Shown piece after piece: positions 16,379-23,464 of a stretch of 38,465 nucleotides of DNA (its first letter is position 1; each line of letters begins with the position of its first letter). The translations under genes were made by a program, and so were the position numbers. The stretch comes from Nitrospiria bacterium (GTDB lineage Bacteria > Nitrospirota > Nitrospiria > DASWJH01), in contig DASWJH010000050.1 in the NCBI GenBank assembly GCA_036397255.1, forward strand, positions 1-38,465. The letters run 5' to 3'. Below the pieces are notes generated by a model. That model made no database searches, was not told the origin of the DNA, and saw only the letters and a program-made list of their open reading frames with translations.

Positions 16379-16543
16379 AATGAGAGACGGGAAAAAACAG
16401 ATTAAGGCCTGGAAGACCCCGCTCTTGAGCGGGTATACACCAAAAGGAAGGAAACCAGCTCACGGTTCATTTTATTTTTAGATTTTTTAAAATAACACAT
16501 GTAGAAAAATCGAAAAACCTTTTTTTTCTATATTTTAAAAAAA

Positions 16544-16569
16544 AGCCCCTCGTTTGAGTTGAAGGGGCT
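16544..16569 (-). terminator. intrinsic terminator of the first cspA-type gene
   Basis: AGCCCCT and AGGGGCT form a 7-bp stem with a 12-nt loop, followed on the minus strand by a run of eight T residues. It starts about 30 bp after the stop codon of the cold-shock gene. Confidence 0.85.
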
Positions 16570-16599
16570 CTTCATTGTAGTAGTATACGCTAAAAAAAA

Positions 16600-16800
16600 T
16601 TAACGCTTCACCACATTGGTGGCCTGCAAGCCTTTGGGGCCTTGAGTAACTTCAAATTCTACTTCTTGGCCTTCCTCAAGGGATTTAAAACCATTGTCTT
16701 GAATGGCTGAAAAGTGGACGAACACATCATCGCCCCCTTCCTGAGAAATAAAACCAAAGCCCTTATCGGCGTTAAACCACTTTACTTTACCTGTTGACAT
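16600..16800 (-). CDS. cold-shock domain protein (first copy)
   Basis: 66-residue CspA-type OB-fold RNA/DNA-binding protein. The RNP1 motif is KGFGFISQE and RNP2 is VFVHFSAI; the start is [13 protein letters not shown] and the end [13 protein letters not shown]. Such proteins melt RNA structure in the cold or in growth. AAAGGAG precedes ATG 16800. Its leader of about 130 nt carries a terminator-like hairpin and a promoter, closely matched by the second copy at 23089-23292. The proteins are about 75-80% alike by eye. Confidence 0.96.
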
Positions 16801-16848
16801 AACTCATTTTCTCCTTTTAATTTTTGTTGCTTTGCTCTACTTCACTAA

Positions 16849-16908
16849 GAGGTTTCATAAAAAAACCGCAGGGCCTTGTGTAAGAGCCTCTGCGGTTGAT
16901 CAAACCTC
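16849..16908 (-). promoter_or_regulatory. leader hairpin set of first cspA-type gene (putative attenuator)
   Basis: Between promoter and start codon on the minus strand, AACCGCAG and CTGCGGTT (16864-16897) close a hairpin whose 3' arm runs straight into a T-run, the form of an intrinsic terminator. GAGGTTT (16902-16908) upstream can pair with AAACCTC (16849-16855) downstream, enclosing it. The upstream GGTT can instead pair with the AACC of the terminator's 5' arm, an alternative fold. No minus-strand gene lies upstream whose end this could be. Confidence 0.65.
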
Positions 16909-16935
16909 CAAAACGCTTAAAGCAAAGTAAATAGC

Positions 16936-16964
16936 ATCTTAACAAATAAAATTAGCTAAATCAA
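16936..16964 (-). promoter_or_regulatory. promoter of first cspA-type gene
   Basis: Minus strand: TTGATT (16959-16964), 17 bp, TAAGAT (16936-16941). The same arrangement and spacing occur before the second copy, which supports the call. Confidence 0.6.
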
Positions 16965-17168
16965 GCAGAAAGTTCAAAAAATAAAGAAAAAGATCCATTG
17001 TTTTGGCTGTTGGGTAAAAATTGGGTACCGATTTGGGCTTTTTTAAGGAAAATCCTTTGATTGAAGAAAAATAATTTTTGGGTTGGTTTCGAGCCGTTTA
17101 ACCAGAATAAAATCAAAAGGGTTCAATCTTAAGGGTGTTTAATCGCTGATCTTCAAGGGAGGTAAAAA

Positions 17169-17977
17169 ATGGAAATAGTAATTTCAAAGGTTCAGGAGTT
17201 GGTGGCAACATTTGGCCTTAAAATCCTCGCGGCGGTTGCTATTTTAATCATGGGCCGTTGGGCTTCAAAATTCCTGACCAATATGGTTCGCAAAACAATG
17301 GCGAAAAGGGTATTGATCCGACACTGGTATCCTTTTCTTCCAACCTGATTTACGTGGGTCTGATGACCTTTGTCATCTTGGTAGCCCTTGGACAGCTCAA
17401 TATACAAACTACTTCGTTTATAGCGGTCCTTGGGGCGGCCGGTTAGCCATCGGCTTTGCATTACAGGGGAATCTGGCGAATTTTGCAGCCGGGTTCCTCA
17501 TGTTAATTTTCCGCCCGTTTAAAGTTGGAGATTAGGTAGAGGCTGGGGGGGGTTGCGGGGGTAGTGGAAGCCATCCATATTTTCACGACCCAGCTCAAGA
17601 GTCCTGATAATCGGACCATTATTGTTCCCAATTCAAAAATAACAGGGGATACCATCACAAATTATTCCAGCAAGGAAACACGTCGGGTGGATTTCGTTTT
17701 TGGGGTGGGATATACCAGTGACATTGACCAAATCAAACGGGTCATTGGAGACGTTTTATCGAAAGACGAACGGATTCTTAAAGATCCTGCCCCCACGGTA
17801 GGGCTCCTTGAGCTAGCGGATAGCAGTGTCAATTTTGCTGTTCGTCCTTGGGTCAAAACACCGGATTATTGGGGAGTCTATTTTGGCATTAACGAGAGTA
17901 TGAAAAAGCGGTTTGACGCAGAAGGGATAAGTATTCCATTTCCTCAAAGAGATGTCCACATGTATGAGTACAAATAG
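17169..17977 (+). pseudogene. mscS-type mechanosensitive channel, broken by several lesions
   Basis: Reading across frames gives a small MscS-like channel. The pieces are MEIVISKVQELVATFGLKIL with the first helices, LGQLNIQTTSFIAVLGAAG, then LAIGFALQGNLANFAAGF (the pore-lining TM3 pattern), IFRPFKVGD, VEAIHIFTTQLKSPDNRTIIVPNSKI (β-domain) and a C-terminal end at HMYEYK. Four lesions are visible: a missing base near 17305-17310 (AKRGIDP is split), a missing base near 17441-17447, an in-frame TAG at 17533-17535 where the channel expects a residue after KVGD, and one extra G in the 8-G run at 17545-17552. One lesion is a true nonsense codon, so reading errors alone do not explain the loss. No intact copy is in the window. 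Confidence 0.88.
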
Positions 17978-18036
17978 GTTTTGGGGAAAAAGGAATAAAT
18001 TTTCGCCGGGACAAAAAAGTGAGGAAAAAAAGGGGT

Positions 18037-22801: not shown

Positions 22802-23050
22802 TTATTCTCCTTTTTGTAATTCATTGAAAAATCTAGTACTTATTATACCATGTTTGTGTTTAAGGTCACCTTTGTCTTGAACCACAGATTACCGGTCTTT
22901 TAAGGATTCAATTGCTTCTAGGTAATCTGAGATAACCTGGGGTATTGGGTGTAAGTAACCAGGTGATTTTCCTTTCACCCGGTTTTGGAAACCAGCCGTT
23001 CCGCAAAATTTTAATTTATTAAATTTTCCTCTTTTTTGAAGAAGAAAAAA

Positions 23051-23077
23051 AAAGCCTCCCGAATATATTCGGGAGGC
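23051..23077 (-). terminator. intrinsic terminator of the second cspA-type gene
   Basis: A perfect inverted repeat, AAGCCTCCCGAAT facing ATTCGGGAGGCTT, followed on the minus strand by a long T-run. It begins about 12 bp after the cold-shock gene stop codon. Confidence 0.92.
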
Positions 23078-23088
23078 TTATCCATAAG

Positions 23089-23292
23089 CTATGAAAGCTT
23101 AACGACGTTTGTTGCCTGAAGCCCTTTGGGTCCCTGGGTAATTTCAAATTCCACGGGTTGACCTTCATCCAAGGATTTAAAGCCATCCCCTTGGATTGCT
23201 GAGAAGTGAACAAAAAGATCCTCTCCGCTCTCCTGTGAAATAAAACCAAAGCCTTTACTGGCATTGAACCATTTTACATTACCTTTCGGCAT
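23089..23292 (-). CDS. cold-shock domain protein (second copy)
   Basis: 67-residue CspA-type protein with KGFGFISQE (RNP1) and LFVHFSAI (RNP2), beginning [14 protein letters not shown] and ending in NVVKLS. It is a close paralogue of the protein at 16600-16800. The promoter, leader hairpins and ribosome binding site (GAAAGGAGAAAA) are all arranged the same way, so the gene and its control region were duplicated together or kept under the same selection. Confidence 0.96.
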
Positions 23293-23340
23293 AACTACTT
23301 TTCTCCTTTCATACTTTGTTCTCTTTGTCTCAATGGGAAA

Positions 23341-23409
23341 GAAGGTGTTCTTTAAAAAAAAAAACCGCAGGGCTTTGATTAAAAGCCTCTACGGTTTATG
23401 CAAACCTTC
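23341..23409 (-). promoter_or_regulatory. leader hairpin set of second cspA-type gene (putative attenuator)
   Basis: On the minus strand, AAACCG and CGGTTT with inner GGCTTT and AAAGCC (23362-23397) form a hairpin followed by about 11 T. GAAGGT (23404-23409) can pair with ACCTTC (23341-23346) to enclose it. GGTTT just upstream can instead pair with the AAACC arm of the terminator (GGTTTGCATAAACC). The helix positions match the first copy although the bases differ, so pairing is conserved by compensating changes. Confidence 0.65.
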
Positions 23410-23435
23410 AAAACAATTGAAACAAAGCTAAGAGA

Positions 23436-23464
23436 AGAATAGCAAATAAACAGGAGAAAATCAA
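23436..23464 (-). promoter_or_regulatory. promoter of second cspA-type gene
   Basis: Minus strand: TTGATT (23459-23464), 17 bp, TATTCT (23436-23441). Same −35 box, spacing and distance to the gene as in the first copy. Confidence 0.6.

Follow-up and report, generated by a model that had tools for sequence, protein, structure and literature searches.

Control of the best-studied cold-shock genes is exerted through translation, mRNA stability or Rho termination. The locus compared with them here is a cold-shock protein (csp) gene and its leader in a Nitrospiria bacterium, located in a 38,465-nt stretch of DNA (contig DASWJH010000050.1) that is referred to as the window. In the case of E. coli cspA, a thermosensor controls mRNA stability and translation (PMC7858274). 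The Nitrospirota leader is likewise a long structured cold-shock leader with a possible temperature response, but it is unrelated to the E. coli element (RF01766) in sequence and structure. E. coli cspB and cspG undergo Rho-dependent premature termination (PMC7815308), and early termination in the 5'UTR or ORF, which limits csp expression, would be the shared feature; the terminator predicted here is instead intrinsic and conserved in sequence. The S. aureus cspA leader of 113 nt forms a hairpin that is cut by RNase III, after which stability and translation increase. A long 5' hairpin of ~110 nt before csp is common to both, whereas the S. aureus mechanism is cleavage and no nested terminator is described in the accessible part of that source (PMC3386247). 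The Listeria cspA leader (101 nt) is a thermosensor with two exclusive folds that acts on translation (PMC8079631); the present leader may be similar in having exclusive folds, although the Listeria switch concerns access to the ribosome site and not termination.

Csp proteins themselves affect terminators. B. subtilis CspB and CspD change read-through at terminators (PMC8307031), and antitermination by the E. coli CspA family is reported there by citation (Bae 2000, cited in PMC8307031). As Csp proteins alter terminator read-through in these species, Csp autoregulation at the Nitrospirota leader is plausible, although the known effects occur at the terminators of other genes. Moreover, the B. 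subtilis cspB and cspC leaders carry 'cold shock boxes', unlike the Nitrospirota leader. Also close are terminator/antiterminator attenuators such as pyr, T-box and protein-gene leaders (Naville & Gautheret 2010, PMC2965389), in which promoter, leader, competing early fold and intrinsic terminator precede the gene in the order proposed here, and which often provide feedback on the gene's own product class. Unlike these, the Nitrospirota leader has no known ligand domain, and a third partner for its 5' strand lies 3' of the terminator. Csp is not mentioned in the main text of this survey of premature terminators (PMC2965389), and a search confined to the open literature found no account of intrinsic attenuation ahead of csp genes in Nitrospirota.

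The two leaders in the window

The features of the first csp locus (copy 1), all on the minus strand, are as follows.

16936..16964, minus strand: promoter, TTGATT (16964-16959), 17 nt, TAAGAT (16941-16936), read from the sequence
16918..16927, minus strand: 5' strand of helix P1, CUUUGCUUUA (5' box), paired with 16839-16830 in the minimum-energy fold
16902..16909, minus strand: 5' strand of helix P2, GGAGGUUU, from folding; its internal GGUU is able to pair with the terminator AACC
16859..16897, minus strand: terminator-like hairpin AACCGCAG-A-GGC..GCC-CTGCGGTT (16897-16864) and U tract (16865-16859), from fold energy and conservation
16848..16855, minus strand: 3' strand of P2, AAACCUCU, minimum-energy fold
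16830..16839, minus strand: 3' strand of P1, UAGAGCAAAG, minimum-energy fold and alignment A3
16811..16816, minus strand: Shine-Dalgarno sequence AAGGAG, from sequence and fold, outside every leader helix
16600..16800, minus strand: csp gene, 66 aa, cold-shock domain (Pfam PF00313, E 5.3e-31)
16537..16571, minus strand: terminator 3' of csp copy 1, GAGCCCCTTC..GAGGGGCTTTTTTTT, from the sequence

The 17-bp-spaced promoter of the preliminary description was present on direct reading. It agrees with the consensus at 8 of 12 positions and thus falls below the 9/12 threshold of a generic scan; in close relatives, TTGACT-type -35 boxes and matching -10 boxes lie at the same spacing from the leader. 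Transcription is predicted to start at about 16929, giving a minus-strand leader of about 129 nt (16929-16801) before the ATG at 16800, in agreement with the ~130 nt given earlier. The GC-rich stem said to run into seven T residues was borne out. Its 8 + 3 pairs are interrupted by a bulged A and lead into 7 T, two of which are paired, and the fold energy of the hairpin is -19.4 kcal/mol compared with -8.0 ± 2.5 in dinucleotide shuffles (z -4.54, 0/200). The hairpin and its U tract lie between the promoter and the gene on the sense strand, which is the arrangement of an intrinsic-terminator attenuator. As the preliminary description had held, no same-strand gene ends directly upstream of the leader; because the next gene, from 17169 (+), is divergent, the reading of the hairpin as the terminator of an upstream gene was rejected. 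By eye, this divergent gene (17169-17980, plus strand) is MscS-like and split into short ORFs by apparent single-base losses. It is either a pseudogene or a product of assembly errors, and in the latter case run lengths, for example of the U tract, would also be uncertain.

The pairing of GAGGTTT with AAACCTC around the hairpin was found as P2 (GGAGGUUU/AAACCUCU, 16909-16902 with 16855-16848). It had been counted among at least two exclusive folds, and this part of the claim did not hold, because the helix encloses the terminator hairpin and its 3' strand is transcribed only later than the U tract; it is compatible with the terminator. An outer helix absent from the preliminary description, P1 (CUUUGCUUUA/UAGAGCAAAG), closes the entire copy 1 leader, and its 5' strand begins a few nucleotides from the predicted 5' end of the RNA.

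The genome has four single-domain csp genes, and three of them carry the hairpin, namely copy 1, copy 2 in the same window, and a third csp on another contig; the fourth is without it. The 3.3-Mb assembly contains exactly three instances of the pattern CCGYAG-N8-26-CTGCGGTTTT, each of them in a csp leader. The features of copy 2 are given below, and its leader matched covariance model R1 with E 3.5e-16, a value to be read with the copy 2 sequence itself being part of R1.

23436..23464, minus strand: copy 2 promoter, TTGATT-17-TATTCT, from the sequence
23323..23427, minus strand: copy 2 leader, with P1 CUUUGUUUCA (23427-23418) paired with UGAGACAAAG (23332-23323) and P2 GAAGGU/ACCUUC, from sequence, folding and alignment A3
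23354..23397, minus strand: copy 2 terminator-like hairpin AAACCGTAG..CTGCGGTTT and U tract (11 T), from sequence and pattern searches
23089..23292, minus strand: csp gene copy 2, from the csp gene survey of the genome

The cspA thermoregulator model RF01766 matched both window loci (16538-16917 and 23049-23390), which would suit a translational thermosensor of that family, like those of E. coli or Listeria. However, the coding segment alone scored 86.8 bits at model positions 158-428, and the leader alone (16801-16990) gave no match. Membership in RF01766 was rejected, since the match rests on the coding region, and the ribosome site is free in the predicted folds; such a translational thermosensor is highly improbable here. 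In Rfam 15, no family exceeded its gathering score outside the coding region of the leader loci. The earlier view of a terminator-type leader with alternative folds, unlike the E. coli cspA thermosensor, is supported by the comparative evidence. As RF01766 spans the csp coding region, annotations may call unrelated csp genes cspA thermoregulators.

Distribution in Nitrospirota

Within the class Nitrospiria (12 families), a terminator-like hairpin was found on the sense strand in 62 of 133 csp leaders and on the antisense strand in 5. The rate for other genes was 21/171, several of these belonging to a ~105-aa family without a Pfam match. The pattern CCGCAG-N8-26-CTGCGGTTTTT occurred 34 times in 147 class genomes, 26 of them in csp leaders. 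A generic class-wide terminator sequence was ruled out, as the hairpin pattern is specific to csp leaders. The covariance search suggested in the preliminary description pointed the same way, with all 16 matches of R1 in 270 class genomes being csp leaders. In the largest family of the class (f2; G001, G008 and others), the csp leader terminator is mostly missing while one or two csp genes are kept.

R1 also weakly matched csp leaders of other Nitrospirota classes, and a second covariance model, R3, was built from those leaders. R3 found matches in 155 of 396 Nitrospirota genomes and 97 of 169 genera, with up to 7 per genome. Among 70 inspected matches, 69 precede csp (one truncated) and one precedes a family without a Pfam match. 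In 70 leaders, the four positions that follow the stem were occupied by U in 97, 100, 96 and 80%, with a fall to ~13-30% from the ninth position on, and the U tract was confined to the 3' side of the hairpin.

A similar arrangement was observed before genes of glycine-rich RRM proteins (PF00076) in Nitrospirota, where 22 of 30 leaders had a sense terminator hairpin and none an antisense one. These hairpins lie 26-73 nt before the start codon (loci L197, L270-L299). Several RRM-gene leaders contain GAGACUUUAAAAG, which is similar to the csp leader loop. In many Nitrospirota genomes, genes of the ~105-aa family (RTVNF..., CIDGGF..., GELVC) stand directly behind the leader or the leader-csp unit (L198, L268, L300-L329), and in places they adjoin an RRM gene. 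RRM genes and genes of this family were both found just behind leader-csp units in several genomes. The ~105-aa family is likely a functional partner of the cold-shock unit.

Comparative support for the helices

When RNAalifold was applied to alignment A1, only the hairpin was recovered and the outer helix was misaligned; the subsets A3, A2 and A4 were used instead. In A2 and A4, which were aligned with MAFFT independently of the covariance model, two-sided changes were found at 6 pairs (in P1, the terminator and an additional hairpin ahead of the ribosome site) and at 7 pairs (0/500 in shuffles), respectively. In A6, with 70 distinct R3-type leaders, 92.6% of the cells of 26 pairs were paired and 13 pairs changed on both sides, giving 70 two-sided cells against 33 ± 8 in shuffles (0/500), in an alignment that was fitted to the covariance model and is thus biased towards it. 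When the partner was slid along as a control, pairing in A6 fell to 30-62%. Both window copies are part of A3, where P1 was 97% paired and 9 of 11 pairs were variable, nearly all on one side. Because the covariation score of A3 was no better than that of shuffles, support in the window's own group is taken from the retention of pairing. The families f8 and f9 (L010, L013, L017, L034, L057 and relatives) have an extra covarying hairpin, UCAGC..GCUGA, between the outer helix and the Shine-Dalgarno sequence.

The outer helix was also examined by swapping partners among 30 leaders. The 5' strand preferred its own 3' segment far above those of other leaders (z -9.3), and the upstream control segment gave -1.5 vs -5.9 kcal. 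The preliminary description had named absence of helix conservation in related genomes as grounds for giving up the switch; the outer helix and the terminator are conserved there, by covariation or by retained pairing, and both are well supported as predicted structures of csp leaders.

No other feature is as strongly supported as the outer helix, which buries the 5' end. This would agree with a long 5'-terminal hairpin that acts post-transcriptionally, either stabilising the mRNA or being cleaved by RNase III so that the ribosome site becomes free, with termination at the U tract being incidental. There is a precedent in S. aureus cspA, in which RNase III cleaves the hairpin of the 113-nt leader (PMC3386247). 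Such a role leaves the one-sided U tract (62 sense vs 5 antisense; U at 96-100% in the first three positions) and the same arrangement before RRM genes unexplained, and the Shine-Dalgarno sequence already lies outside the helices; as the main function it is unlikely. The conserved hairpin and U tract could still serve stability or processing. The csp leader is probably a cis-acting attenuator that controls transcription of an RNA-chaperone gene by an intrinsic terminator. From the sequences we infer that termination takes place in vivo and that its outcome is under regulation.

Early fold and proposed mechanism

Before the 3' arm of the terminator is made, another fold is predicted for copy 1.

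16874..16927, minus strand: early (antiterminator-like) fold, CUUUG/CAAGG, UAAG/CUUA, GUUUU/GAGGC and GGUU/AACC, -12.8 kcal/mol

The GGTT/AACC pairing proposed earlier (16906-16903 with 16897-16894) is real and forms part of this larger fold. In stepwise folding, all five leaders (the two window copies and three leaders of other groups) passed from early fold to terminator to outer helix, and at the early stage their 5' strand was paired with the 5' arm and loop of the terminator. At equilibrium, the early fold is much weaker than the terminator.

When partners were swapped among 30 leaders for the full pre-terminator fold, z was -3.3 to -3.8 and p 0.0002-0.0007 with cuts of 7-9 nt and a 45-nt 5' segment, other settings being weaker, up to p 0.03. 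The upstream control segment gave z -0.8 and p 0.21, and 18 dereplicated leaders gave p 0.023. The signal came from copy 2, two f5 types, f8, f9 and R3; in R3 the fold has 11-12 pairs (AGAAGUUUUUG/CAAAGACUUUU), with both strands nearly invariant. It was missing in families f4, f6 and f12, window copy 1 showed zero excess (residual +0.4), and the early-fold pairs showed no covariation in A2. A simpler antiterminator, in which the 5' segment forms a plain duplex with the 5' arm and loop of the terminator, was rejected, as its pairing did not exceed that of shuffles (genus-mean z -0.20 ± 0.19). The candidate exclusive pair is the early fold and the terminator; in aggregate, competition between the two is moderately supported, and in some lineages only.

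The conservation of the terminator in f4, f6 and f12 without a detectable early fold would suit a constitutive partial terminator with fixed read-through, or a short leader RNA acting in trans, and no switch; the leader sequence is also common to multiple csp copies per genome. However, the outer helix, which would form only after read-through, strongly covaries, and the early fold prefers its own partner while the control is clean. A terminator without a switch is accordingly regarded as quite improbable.

For the regulated attenuator, the following course is proposed. RNA polymerase would make the 5' strand first, and before the terminator 3' arm exists this strand would pair with the terminator 5' arm and loop. 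Where the early fold opens, the GC-rich hairpin would form on the U tract and transcription would stop, with a leader RNA of ~70 nt as the product. Where the polymerase reads through, the 5' strand would pair with the segment immediately before the ribosome site, and the resulting long 5'-terminal helix would enclose the terminator hairpin and bury the 5' end, with the Shine-Dalgarno sequence left free.

Cold or a Csp protein would be the trigger. In the warm, the weak early fold would refold easily and termination would win, while cold would trap the early fold and lead to read-through. Cold strengthens terminators too, so the energies do not fix the sign of a temperature effect. Binding of a Csp protein to the U-rich strand may tune the choice. 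CUUUG in the copy 1 5' box resembles the CspB consensus GTCTTTG/C (PMC7825780). Temperature-dependent refolding of the early fold, possibly tuned by Csp, is the most likely trigger, put forward tentatively as the least certain step.

More broadly, it is possible, though doubtful at present, that these leaders form a Nitrospirota-wide RNA family in which a transcriptional switch controls cold-shock-domain and RRM chaperones, senses cold or the level of free chaperone by the competition of early fold and terminator, and locks the read-through mRNA for use in a third fold. If true, the cold-shock response would be run by premature termination instead of translation. Attenuation predicts short leader RNAs whose share varies with temperature or chaperone level. 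Covariance models are now supplied for a leader RNA without an Rfam family, and they offer a route to a regulon linking RNA chaperones of two unrelated classes. If csp and RRM genes across much of Nitrospirota are indeed preceded by a conserved attenuator of the intrinsic type, this would be a distinct strategy of control.
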